Below, in pieces: positions 23-16,728 of a DNA stretch of 64,000 bases. Under the pieces are notes generated by a model. It was not told the DNA's origin and searched no databases. It saw nothing but the letters and a program-made list of their open reading frames with translations. This DNA comes from Pseudomonas marvdashtae (GTDB lineage Bacteria; Pseudomonadota; Gammaproteobacteria; Pseudomonadales; Pseudomonadaceae), in NCBI RefSeq assembly GCF_014268655.2, contig NZ_JABWQX020000001.1, positions 558,001 to 622,000 of the forward strand, read 5' to 3'. A program made the translations under genes and the position numbers. Position 1 is the first letter of the stretch; each line of letters begins with the position of its first letter.

Positions 23-66
23 TCACTGCTCATCAGTGATCGGGTTTAGCAGCTCGTGGCGAAACA
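23..66 (+). promoter_or_regulatory. Upstream target-like sites of the DUF6124 leader RNA, copy 1
   Basis: A 6-bp inverted repeat (TCACTG/CAGTGA, 23-28 and 34-39) is followed by TTAGCAG at 46-52, which is the exact complement of CTGCTAA at 167-173 in the cloverleaf RNA. GAAACA at 61-66 complements part of the hairpin loop at 152-161. The same order of elements occurs before the second DUF6124 gene. P1 and P4 C4/CI loci likewise carry target-like sites on both sides of the antisense RNA. Function here is inferred. Confidence 0.5.
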
Positions 67-114
67 GGTTGTGCAAGGCGTCATCCAGTCAGGATTCCCA
101 ATCCTGCACTTGAT

Positions 115-189
115 GGTAGCTGTGCGCAGGGCGTCCTCGGACGCGCCGGTTTCTTGTTTCCCCGGTCTGCTAACCTGCGTACAGCTGCC
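115..189 (+). ncRNA. C4/CI-like structured antisense RNA, copy 1 (leader of DUF6124)
   Basis: The stretch folds as a cloverleaf. The outer stem 115-120/184-189 (GGTAGC/GCTGCC) continues without a break into a 10-bp stem 121-130/174-183. Inside are hairpin 1 (131-135/140-144) and hairpin 2 (145-149/162-166, loop 150-161). The segment CTGCTAA (167-173) is left single-stranded. Comparison with the copy at 16177-16251 shows compensatory changes in the 10-bp stem and a completely different hairpin 1 with pairing kept. The loop (152-161) complements the ribosome binding region of the next gene (231-240), and 167-173 complements 199-205. This matches the arrangement of phage P1/P4 C4 RNA. The family assignment is from memory of that architecture, not from a search. 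Confidence 0.72.
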
Positions 190-198
190 TCCCATCGT

Positions 199-240
199 TT
201 AGCAGCGAGCGGGTGATGGCTCCAATGACAGGAAGCAAGA
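199..240 (+). promoter_or_regulatory. Predicted antisense target covering the DUF6124 ribosome binding site, copy 1
   Basis: TTAGCAG (199-205) pairs with CTGCTAA (167-173). GGAAGCAAGA (231-240) pairs over 10 bases, one of them G-U, with the hairpin loop TCTTGTTTCC (152-161). The second site contains the Shine-Dalgarno-like AGGAAG, just upstream of the ATG at 243. Pairing order is antiparallel as needed for one continuous antisense interaction. Occupancy would hide the start of translation. Confidence 0.6.
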
Positions 241-14795: not shown

Positions 14796-15917
14796 ATGAC
14801 TGCAGCTCCTCACGTCTGGCAGGCCGATAAGCCGTATAACCAATTACCGCCTCTGCCTCCAGCAGCCGAACTGGAAACCCGTGCAGTACTCAAGCGCTGT
14901 ATCGAGGCGCGCACGGCCTTGGCTGAGTTGAAGCAGGCAGCCGAACTGATACCCAACCAAACGGTACTGATCAACACCATTCCCTTGCTGGAAGCCAAGG
15001 ACAGTTCCGAAATCGAAAGTATCGTCACCACCACGGACTTGCTCTTTCAGCATGCCCAAGAGAGTGACGGCCATGCCGATCCGGCGACGAAAGAAGCCCT
15101 GCGCTACCGCAAAGCCCTACACCACGGCTACCTATCGCTGGCCGAGCGCCCATTATCCACAGGCACTGCAGTCGAAATCTGCCGCACGCTCAAAGGCGTG
15201 AACATGGACATTCGACGCGTACCAGGCACTCAACTAGCCAACGACCGTACCGGCGAAATCATCTACACCCCACCGGACGGCGAAGATCATCTGCGTGATT
15301 TGCTCGCTAACCGGGAGCGCTTCCTGCACAACGAGACGGATCTGGACCCGCTGGTGCGTATGGCCGTCGGGCACTACCAGTTCGAAGCTATTCACCCGTT
15401 CACCGATGGCAATGGCCGTACCGGGCGGGTGCTTAATACGCTGTTCCTGATTCAGGAGGGGCTGCTGAATCTACCAATTCTCTATCTCAGCCGTTACATC
15501 ATTGCCCACCGAGCCGACTACTACCGTCTCCTGCTCGACGTCACCCGCGAACAGGCATGGGAGCCCTGGTTGCTCTACATGCTTAGCGCCGTGGAAGAAA
15601 CCGCCCGCTGGACCTGCGCCAAAATCGCCGCCATCCGCAGCCTGTCCGAACACACGACCCAATTCGTTCGTGAGCAACTGCCGAAAATCTATTCCCGTGA
15701 ATTGGTGGATGTGATTTTCGAACAGCCGTACTGCCGCATCCATAACGTCGTCGAGAAACAAATTGCCGGGCGCCAGGCTGCCTCTCGCTACCTCAAAGAT
15801 CTCGTTGACATCGGCGTTCTCCAGGAAGCGCAGGTCGGCAAGGAAAAGCTCTTTATCCACCCGAAACTGATGCAATTGTTGACTCGGGATAACAATGAGT
15901 TCAGGCCTTATGGCTGA
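14796..15917 (+). CDS. Fic-domain protein (AMP-transferase type) with winged-helix C-terminus
   Basis: This 373-residue protein carries the complete Fic motif HPFTDGNGRTGR (His200 to Arg211), the signature of nucleotide transfer, usually AMP, to a target hydroxyl. A Fic_N region precedes it and contains SSEIES near 70-75, the position of the inhibitory helix motif (S/T)xxxE(G/N); the glutamate (Glu74) is present but Ser replaces the final Gly/Asn. The C-terminal part (RIHNVVEKQIAGRQAASRYLKDLVDIGVL) looks like a winged helix. No separate antitoxin gene is visible, consistent with built-in inhibition. The gene is alone between two copies of a 20-bp repeat and behind tandem palindromes, so it is probably acquired. 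Confidence 0.9.
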   Translation: MTAAPHVWQADKPYNQLPPLPPAAELETRAVLKRCIEARTALAELKQAAELIPNQTVLINTIPLLEAKDSSEIESIVTTTDLLFQHAQESDGHADPATKEALRYRKALHHGYLSLAERPLSTGTAVEICRTLKGVNMDIRRVPGTQLANDRTGEIIYTPPDGEDHLRDLLANRERFLHNETDLDPLVRMAVGHYQFEAIHPFTDGNGRTGRVLNTLFLIQEGLLNLPILYLSRYIIAHRADYYRLLLDVTREQAWEPWLLYMLSAVEETARWTCAKIAAIRSLSEHTTQFVREQLPKIYSRELVDVIFEQPYCRIHNVVEKQIAGRQAASRYLKDLVDIGVLQEAQVGKEKLFIHPKLMQLLTRDNNEFRPYG

Positions 15918-15954: not shown

Positions 15955-16005
15955 AAACGGGGTGTTTATTGGCGCGCTTGGAATCCAGAGGCGACTGACG
16001 TTTTC

Positions 16006-16035
16006 TTGCGCCATTGCCTACAACTACGCCAGAAT
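16006..16035 (+). promoter_or_regulatory. Possible sigma-70 promoter of the second leader RNA
   Basis: TTGCGC (16006-16011) and CAGAAT (16030-16035) are spaced by 18 bases and lie upstream of the conserved leader. Each hexamer matches four of six consensus bases. The corresponding part of copy 1 is outside the window, so conservation cannot be checked. Confidence 0.3.
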
Positions 16036-16079
16036 CCGCCGGCTTGTGCGTTTTAGGGGCCGCGGGTAGCTTGAGTCTG

Positions 16080-16120
16080 TCACTGAGCATCAGTGATCGG
16101 GTTTCGCAGCCCGGACTCTA
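16080..16120 (+). promoter_or_regulatory. Upstream target-like sites of the DUF6124 leader RNA, copy 2
   Basis: Inverted repeat TCACTG/CAGTGA (16080-16085/16091-16096) is followed by TTCGCAG (16103-16109), the complement of CTGCGAA at 16229-16235. GACTCTA (16114-16120) complements seven bases of the hairpin loop at 16215-16223. The order is the same as in copy 1, but the paired bases are changed together. Confidence 0.55.
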
Positions 16121-16176
16121 TAGGCGCACAACGTCACCTTCGAAAGCAGATCGCCCATGTCTGTGATTTCGTCAGA

Positions 16177-16251
16177 GGTGGCTGTGCGTGGGAGACCCCT
16201 TGGGTCTGCCGGTCCCTAGAGTCCCGGTCTGCGAACCCGCGTACAGCTGCC
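16177..16251 (+). ncRNA. C4/CI-like structured antisense RNA, copy 2 (leader of DUF6124)
   Basis: It has the same cloverleaf as 115-189. The outer stem is 16177-16182/16246-16251 (two G-U pairs), followed by a 10-bp stem 16183-16192/16236-16245. Hairpin 1 is AGACCC-CTT-GGGTCT (16193-16207). Hairpin 2 is 16208-16212/16224-16228, whose loop carries CCTAGAGTC (16215-16223), and the free segment is CTGCGAA (16229-16235). The loop complements GACTCTAGG at 16293-16301 over nine bases, covering the ribosome binding site of the next gene. The free segment complements 16265-16271. Stem bases covary with copy 1. Confidence 0.75.
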
Positions 16252-16264
16252 ACCCCAACTTCGT

Positions 16265-16301
16265 TTCGCAGCGAATGGTGGTAGCTCCAACAGACTCTAG
16301 G
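16265..16301 (+). promoter_or_regulatory. Predicted antisense target covering the DUF6124 ribosome binding site, copy 2
   Basis: TTCGCAG (16265-16271) and GACTCTAGG (16293-16301) are the exact complements of 16229-16235 and 16215-16223. The Shine-Dalgarno AGGAG (16299-16303) overlaps the second site and lies seven bases before ATG 16311. In addition GGTGGTAGC (16277-16285) can pair with GCTGCCACC (16246-16254), an alternative to the closing stem of the cloverleaf. Confidence 0.62.
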
Positions 16302-16310
16302 AGCTTTACC

Positions 16311-16670
16311 ATGGCTAAAATTACACCAAACCCTCCGATTACAGACGAGCATGTGTCCCGCGTTCAGGCTGCTCGTAATAAAAAGCTTGATGAGGCTGCC
16401 GATCGGGCTTTGGATTTTTATCTAAAGCCTACGCCGAAGAAAGAAACGTCTGACAAGGCCGGCTCCATCTTTCGTATCGCACCTGATATTGATTCGGAGT
16501 GTCTGCTCGCCAGTCTCAGTGAAAACCTGGCTTCGGCCAATGCCATGATCAGTGATTTGGCGTTTGATCTGGATGGGTCGCGACGGCGTGTTGCGATGGG
16601 GATTTTGCAGGTGATTGAGGTGAGTGAGCTGTTGGCGAATCGGGCTTTGGATATTGTTGAGGTGAGGTAA
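16311..16670 (+). CDS. DUF6124 (formerly DUF3077) family protein, copy 2
   Basis: This 119-residue protein of unknown function is the paralogue of 243-602. The halves starting ECLLASLSENLASANAMISDLAFDLDGSRR are almost identical, while the N-terminal third differs more. It is predicted soluble and mainly helical, with no signal peptide. The start is fixed by AGGAG seven bases upstream. It follows the second cloverleaf RNA and is closed by a strong terminator. Both copies keep an intact frame. Confidence 0.85.
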   Translation: MAKITPNPPITDEHVSRVQAARNKKLDEAADRALDFYLKPTPKKETSDKAGSIFRIAPDIDSECLLASLSENLASANAMISDLAFDLDGSRRRVAMGILQVIEVSELLANRALDIVEVR

Positions 16671-16697
16671 CAAGGGGGCGCGCTAACCCCGGGAATG

Positions 16698-16728
16698 AAA
16701 AAAGGTCTTGCATGGCAAGACCTTTTTT
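16698..16728. terminator. Bidirectional intrinsic terminator
   Basis: The arms are AAAAAAGGTCTTGC (16698-16711) and GCAAGACCTTTTTT (16715-16728) with loop ATG. It lies between the DUF6124 gene and the converging membrane-protein gene, with a T-run usable on either strand. Confidence 0.9.

Follow-up and report, generated by a model that had tools for sequence, protein, structure and literature searches.

The window, i.e., the whole 64,000-nucleotide stretch of Pseudomonas marvdashtae DNA analyzed here, contains two genes for DUF6124 proteins, each preceded by a structured leader (Table 1). C4 is a phage immunity RNA that was worked out in coliphages P1 and P7, and both leaders contain a member of this antisense RNA family (Rfam RF01695), with scores of 80.5 bits for copy 1 and 62.1 bits for copy 2 (E value of 1.3e-9) against a cut-off of 45. 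The GenBank record of phage P1 (AF234172) annotates a1, b1, C4, a2, b2, and icd, in that order, and the window leaders share the element order a1-b1-C4-a2-b2-gene. Both have the C4 architecture of a closing stem (P1) and two hairpins (P2 and P3), with b' in the P3 loop and a' single stranded. In both, a' is complementary to a2 and b' to b2, which sits at the ribosome binding site (RBS). The gene that follows this layout is DUF6124 here and not icd/ant, which distinguishes the loci from a P1-type immI operon.

Table 1. Features of the two C4-DUF6124 modules, in positions of the window
Feature	Position	Strand	Basis or remark
Copy 1			
a1 TTAGCAG	46..52	+	string placement
C4 antisense RNA	109..195	+	RF01695, alignment
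b' TCTTGTTTCC	152..161	+	string placement
a' CTGCTAA	167..173	+	string placement
a2 TTAGCAG	199..205	+	string placement
b2 GGAAGCAAGA	231..240	+	string placement
DUF6124 protein, 119 aa	243..602	+	start by eye; PF19619 match G000:C1:558399-558584, 100 bits
Copy 2			
Conserved upstream unit, candidate promoter/operator	16005..16072	+	23-nt core CGCCAGAATCCGCCGGCTTGTGC at 16027-16049
a1 TTCGCAG, upstream complement of a'	16103..16109	+	string placement; a1 matches own a' 7/7 in 31/31 copies
b1 GACTCTA, upstream complement of b'	16114..16120	+	string placement
Segment predicted to pair with 5' arm of C4 closing stem (16177-16187) in uncut leader	16126..16138	+	minimum-energy fold, pair probabilities
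C4 antisense RNA	16171..16257	+	RF01695 match, alignment
b' hairpin loop CCTAGAGTC	16215..16223	+	alignment, string placement
a' CTGCGAA, single stranded	16229..16235	+	alignment, string placement
a2 TTCGCAG	16265..16271	+	string placement
Segment between a2 and b2, predicted partner of closing-stem 3' arm (16245-16253) in uncut leader	16278..16286	+	minimum-energy fold
b2 GACTCTAGG, overlapping Shine-Dalgarno	16293..16301	+	string placement
DUF6124 protein, 119 aa	16311..16670	+	PF19619, 96.2 bits (cut-off of 27)

All 31 C4s of the window's genome have GG at the P1 processing point. By analogy with the phage, position 16177 is presumed to be the mature 5' end of the copy 2 C4, as generated by RNase P. 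Upstream of C4, the core CGCCAGAATCCGCCGGCTTGTGC recurs with 0 to 3 mismatches at 23 of the 31 C4 loci, while upstream sequences differ at the other 8, and this conserved stretch is perhaps a shared promoter or operator. Promoter-like elements can be seen by eye in the copy 2 unit (TTGTGC at 16044-16049 and TAGCTT at 16067-16072, with a 17-nt spacer); a consensus promoter scan upstream of copy 2 found none. The gene directly upstream of copy 2 (window 14796-15917) encodes a Fic family protein with Fic_N, Fic, and SoFic-like C domains. Ahead of its start, the DUF6124 frame of copy 2 runs back without a stop through C4, as far as a GTG at 16188 (160 aa; window 16188-16670), which is probably due to chance in G+C-rich DNA. 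The copy 2 gene is followed at window 16697-16727 by an A/T-flanked hairpin and a T run that looks like a terminator by eye and is absent from the scan output.

A sequence-only reading of the two leaders had described the pairing elements without recognizing the C4 family, the 31 copies where it counted two, or the upstream a1/b1 sites. All of the strings that it named in both copies lie where it placed them, including the complementary pairs CCTAGAGTC/GACTCTAGG and CTGCGAA/TTCGCAG of copy 2. The loop pair of copy 1, TCTTGTTTCC/GGAAGCAAGA, does form 10 bp, but these include one G-U and the longest Watson-Crick run is 5, so that the two strings are not exact complements. Hairpin 1 (P2) differs in sequence between the copies and keeps its pairing in the RF01695 alignments, as had been claimed. 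The two compensatory stem changes reported are reduced to one: in a comparison of 16 closing-stem pairs, A-T is replaced by G-C at one of them, a two-sided change, and two others are altered on a single side and remain paired (A-T to G-T and C-G to T-G).

From these two copies, the reading had argued for selection on pairing, and had proposed a family-wide test of loop/RBS covariation. Such covariation was found, by permutation rather than with R-scape. Across the 31 C4s of the window's genome, the mean longest Watson-Crick run of b' with b2 was 7.39 nt in the own leader versus 4.50 nt with the other 30 copies. The corresponding values were 6.81 versus 4.25 nt for a'/a2, 7.00 versus 4.57 for a'/a1, and 5.94 versus 4.40 for b'/b1. 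None of 20,000 permutations reached the observed value for any of the four pairings, and the outcome was the same in all three genomes with complete C4 sets (31, 47, and 45 C4s). Complementarity is 7/7 for a2 in 28 of the 31 copies and for a1 in every copy. Within C4, two-sided changes occur once or more in 16 of the 22 predicted pairs over the 31 copies, counted on a consensus that did not recover P3. Sixty single loci from 60 genomes, including G062 and G111, also beat 20,000 permutations for all four pairings (b'/b2, 8.00 versus 4.78); this is a biased choice, i.e., the best-scoring listed C4 of each genome (the second best for G088). Twelve of the 123 C4s could not be parsed; in these, and in a thirteenth, b' and a' were assigned manually on the basis of folds, and over-long loops were trimmed by rule. 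Own partners thus fit better than foreign ones across the wider family, and we conclude that the covariation is family-wide, as expected from selection on pairing.

C4 matches number 31 in the window's genome, every one above the cut-off, and DUF6124 matches number 34. By position, 26 of the 31 C4s precede a DUF6124 match; these include one locus with a disturbed frame (L047) and one with only a DUF6124 fragment after intervening sequence (L036). At the latter (G000:C2:109370-111060), C4 is followed by repeat-like sequence in place of a2/b2 and the fragment lies farther on, i.e., it is a broken module. Three C4s (L027, L030, and L032) are followed by other small frames that match no Pfam family, one (L017) lacks a following frame of 60 aa, and one (L045) lies at a contig end. 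Conversely, 7 of the 34 DUF6124 matches (L048 to L054) lie away from any C4 match, which indicates that C4 control is dispensable, and an eighth is truncated by the start of a contig. Four DUF6124 loci without C4 (L049 to L052) retain leader remnants by eye, as if C4 had been lost, and the frame of L051 is broken.

Of 119 genomes of the genus searched, 110 contain C4 (109 above the cut-off; 33 candidates per genome were scored, so that counts per genome are lower bounds) and 95 contain DUF6124 (94 above the cut-off). In a class-wide draw of 185 genomes, C4 was found in 7, including the window's own, and DUF6124 in the own genome only. Elsewhere in the genus, C4 precedes a DUF3077 gene at one locus (L108) and a Bro-N gene at another (L096). 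The latter gene matches PHROG antirepressor families, and this putative target is a link to a phage origin. By look, C4 leaders also stand before a Bro-N protein at six loci of other genomes of the genus (L094, L097, L098, L100, L101, and L104). DUF3077 was rejected as a C4 target in the window's genome, where two adjacent matches occur at one place with no listed C4 adjoining. Judged by title and the opening of the abstract, no paper listed in a search of the accessible literature covers these Pseudomonas modules.

The b' loop is unique within its genome for every C4 of the three complete sets (31/31, 47/47, and 45/45), and none of the 2,536 within-genome pairs (465 + 1,081 + 990) have b' in common. 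Uniqueness of loops of ∼12 nt is unsurprising by itself; the informative part is the matched comparison of paralogues. Genomes G062 and G111 have 21 b' loops in common, while the window's genome has one in common with G062 and none with G111. At a protein identity of ≥95%, b' was common to 0 of 20 within-genome pairs versus 10 of 26 between-genome pairs, and at 85 to 95% to 0 of 25 versus 5 of 35 (pooled Fisher test P = 1.3e-4, with pairs that are not independent). At a four-fold-site divergence of <0.2, the counts were 0 of 15 within genomes versus 16 of 39 between genomes. At 0.2 to 0.3, both were zero (0 of 30 and 0 of 27), so the matched signal rests on the closest pairs, largely from one genome pair. 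These analyses used loci with an open frame of ≥60 aa (29/31, 44/47, and 43/45), and the four-fold-site comparison further required 60% identity and 25 four-fold sites.

Duplex energies separate own from foreign targets well, though imperfectly, in this model. The own target was strictly best by joint a and b energy for 25/31, 32/47, and 31/45 C4s and by b' alone for 25/31, 23/47, and 21/45; C4 was the best regulator of its own target, by the joint energy, in 28/31, 23/47, and 18/45 cases. Watson-Crick runs of ≥7 nt occur in 27/930, 97/2162, and 110/1980 non-cognate b'/b2 combinations, and own runs of <7 nt in 9/31, 16/47, and 12/45. For the two window copies, an in silico 2-by-2 exchange gave b' duplexes of −13.5 and −15.5 kcal/mol with own partners and −4.0 and −5.4 crosswise. 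By these energies, each RNA is predicted to act on its own gene and to spare the paralogue, which fits b' loops that are unique within genomes and yet common between two genomes. The orthogonal specificity proposed in the sequence-only reading is therefore supported by unique b' loops, also among near-identical paralogues, and by the better fit of own partners, but imperfectly, as the own target is not always the best one. The RBS region of a C4-less locus (L051, G000:C2:590600-592300) pairs with copy 2 b' at −17.9 kcal/mol, which is stronger than the own target of copy 2 (−15.5), and jointly at −25.7, a value reached by none of 930 non-cognate pairs. It was rejected as a trans target of copy 2, since its frame does not join its ATG. 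Among the four C4-less leaders tried, L052 likewise matched strongly (−22.5), the site lying upstream.

We consider it highly probable that the leaders are antisense RNA modules of the C4 type, each repressing DUF6124 in trans through a private b', and that they form mostly separate circuits. One transcript would carry a1, b1, C4, a2, b2, and the DUF6124 gene, as in phage P1, and C4 would be cut from it, which in P1 is done by RNase P. The freed C4 would fold into its three-stem form, exposing the 7-nt strand a' and the hairpin loop b'. Pairing of a' with a2 and of b' with b2 over the DUF6124 RBS would then stop translation; both the trans action and the repression are modeled on P1. With b' as a private address that differs in every C4 of a genome, the modules would be largely separate circuits. 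In most copies of the window's genome, the uncut transcript is predicted by folding to hold C4 inactive through a1/b1. Family membership, layout, covariation, and b' uniqueness are computed results on which this proposal builds.

The private addresses could also have arisen without selection for orthogonality, if old leaders persisted beside coding regions that gene conversion and purifying selection had homogenized. This explanation is the less probable one in our judgment, though it deserves real weight. Divergence of paralogue leaders extends beyond the address, the C4 stems of paralogues being 0.84 identical versus 0.81 in random pairs (300 pairs drawn from all three genomes), purifying selection does hold the proteins, and at a four-fold-site divergence of 0.2 to 0.3 the between-genome pairs have no common b' either. 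However, paralogue leader pairs are similar on both sides of the divergent part, with identities of 0.88 to 0.89 at −260 to −200 and 0.92 to 0.95 in the coding sequence, and dissimilar at −200 to −140 (0.59 to 0.63), which covers b1 and the stretch up to C4, and at b2 (0.69). One tandem pair has 5 differences in 366 coding positions and identical proteins, and its C4 stems and promoter are 0.95 and 0.88 identical, yet its b' loops are only 0.5 identical, like those of random pairs. Between-genome pairs with the same b', which were selected for that property, have leaders that are 0.93 to 0.99 alike throughout.

DUF6124 is the only Pfam assignment of the copy 2 protein. A comparison with solved structures returned nothing useful (best E value of 0.72), and no paper was found under the family name in the literature searched. 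The pN/pS ratio of 0.12 (45 within-genome and 61 between-genome pairs) indicates, at the sequence level, that the proteins are under purifying selection. An antisense RNA that covers the RBS of a gene for a small protein, present in many dispersed and tandem copies, resembles a type I toxin-antitoxin system, in which DUF6124 would be toxic, C4 would be the antitoxin, and orthogonality would keep addiction modules independent; Icd, the target of C4 in P1, is annotated as an inhibitor of cell division. We regard this as unlikely. The protein has no PADLOC match, and the existence of DUF6124 genes without C4, some with leader remnants by eye, is hardly compatible with a strong toxin.

The minimum-energy fold of the uncut copy 2 leader (z = −7.4) differs from the C4 fold. 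In it, a1 pairs with a' and b1 with b', and the two arms of the closing stem are taken up by the flanking segments listed in Table 1; pairing of the segment between a2 and b2 with the 3' arm is weaker in other copies (median of 0.31). The mean closing-stem probability in native leaders of the three genomes was 0.24, 0.30, and 0.32 (30/31, 38/47, and 36/45 loci, as a1 and a frame were needed). It rose to 0.77, 0.77, and 0.80 after shuffling the segment from a1 to C4, which contains b1, and to about 0.71 (0.68 in a second random draw), 0.78, and 0.78 with the upstream part of another copy. The native value was below the shuffled one in 96 of 104 leaders. Cut at GG, all leaders (30/30, 38/38, and 36/36) had a closing-stem probability of ≥0.5, compared to 8, 12, and 13 when uncut. 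The effect was weaker at 59 of the 60 single loci (0.51 versus 0.83; lower at 46 of 59 and below 0.5 at 27 of 59). The predicted trap barely forms in copy 1 (closing stem of 0.69), and the same computation found it absent from the phage P1 leader (0.88), so that a trap is predicted in copy 2, weak in copy 1, and absent in phage P1. The accessibility of b2 was almost unchanged (0.54 native and 0.53 shuffled). Thus, a1/b1 may be a cis trap of the uncut RNA, from which cutting at the presumed RNase P site would free C4; this is a thermodynamic prediction that leaves out cotranscriptional folding, pseudoknots, and proteins.

Alternative leader folding is predicted, and C4 and its target lie in one leader by position, as they would in a folding attenuator whose C4 pairs with b2 of the same transcript and has no trans action. 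Such a cis-only device is very unlikely, as it needs no unique address, and b' is unique within genomes and often kept between two genomes. Avoidance of shared addresses in this way would be expected only from a trans-acting C4. Furthermore, b' and a' scarcely pair downstream in full-leader folds (medians of 0.00, with pseudoknots outside the model), and in P1 it is the processed C4 that binds target mRNAs (PMC5320573), a review listing C4 among trans-acting RNAs (PMC12197685).

Least probable of all are recent prophage remnants that merely retain a phage immunity RNA: C4 is a phage family and some C4s of related genomes precede Bro-N antirepressor-like genes, but DUF6124 has no PHROG match (E values up to 0.01), copy 2 is preceded by a Fic gene, and tblastn with the copy 2 protein found DUF6124 in a single record among 50,697 from phages and in none of 72,556 plasmids, compared to the 95 of 119 genomes of the genus.

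A trans-acting C4 with a cis trap also allows a more far-reaching reading, which we offer tentatively and rather doubt: dozens of mutually exclusive, self-addressed C4 switches per Pseudomonas genome, with trap, release, and self-sustaining on/off memory. A new transcript would trap its own C4 via a1/b1 and the segment mimicking the closing stem, and cutting would release the trans repressor. By binding the a1/b1 sites of a new transcript, mature C4 would also keep that transcript's trap from forming and thereby promote more C4. If true, each module would be a self-sustaining on/off memory, and address exclusion would amount to phage heteroimmunity inside one genome.

The genus has a C4 set in which most members have a matched target gene and each has a private b' loop. 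If the modules work as predicted, they are a natural collection of largely orthogonal antisense pairs and a ready-made test case for the divergence of specificity following duplication. They would also give a handle on the DUF6124 family and make the role of the a1/b1 sites testable.

The modules resemble the C4 (immI; RF01695) of phages P1 and P7 in the three-stem fold, in the pairing of a'/b' with a2/b2 before the gene with b2 at the RBS, and in the upstream a1/b1 and the GG processing point. In P1, RNase P excises C4, which pairs with its target with b' partly over the RBS (PMC5320573; reviewed in PMC12197685). A 4-nt difference between P1 and P7 in C4 and its targets restricts cross-reaction (Citron and Schuster 1990, as cited in PMC5320573), so that the two phage RNAs are mutually orthogonal, as predicted for the Pseudomonas modules. 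Unlike in the phages, the target is DUF6124 instead of icd/ant and the genomes counted carry 31, 47, and 45 C4s. The a1/b1 trap predicted for the uncut RNA is a further difference from P1.

The Group 1 small RNAs (sRNAs) of Acinetobacter baumannii are similar in number and form, with 21 similar sRNAs of C4 fold in one genome, a variable pairing loop, and read coverage that begins at GG (PMC5320573). That loop is called a' there, and the naming may differ from that of the P1 record used here. The section on these sRNAs names no target genes and describes their upstream Region 1 as having very limited P1/P7 homology (PMC5320573). In contrast, almost all of the C4s studied here have matched sites both ahead of a gene and upstream. 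The c4-a1b1 motif, a structured motif of gammaproteobacteria and phages whose name indicates an upstream a1/b1 region, is presented in text that states no function for it (Weinberg 2010, PMC2864571). In the 123 leaders of the present analysis, covariation links a1 and b1 to C4, and the two sites are predicted to trap it.

To our knowledge, the Sib/ibs type I toxin-antitoxin systems have no C4 fold and no shared leader. They do have an antisense RNA family that discriminates its target mRNAs, via domains TRD1 and TRD2, but the targets are membrane peptides of 19 aa (IbsC) (PMC8309996). The RNA family of the Pseudomonas modules is known, and what is new is its copy number, its target family, the exclusivity of its addresses, and the predicted trap.
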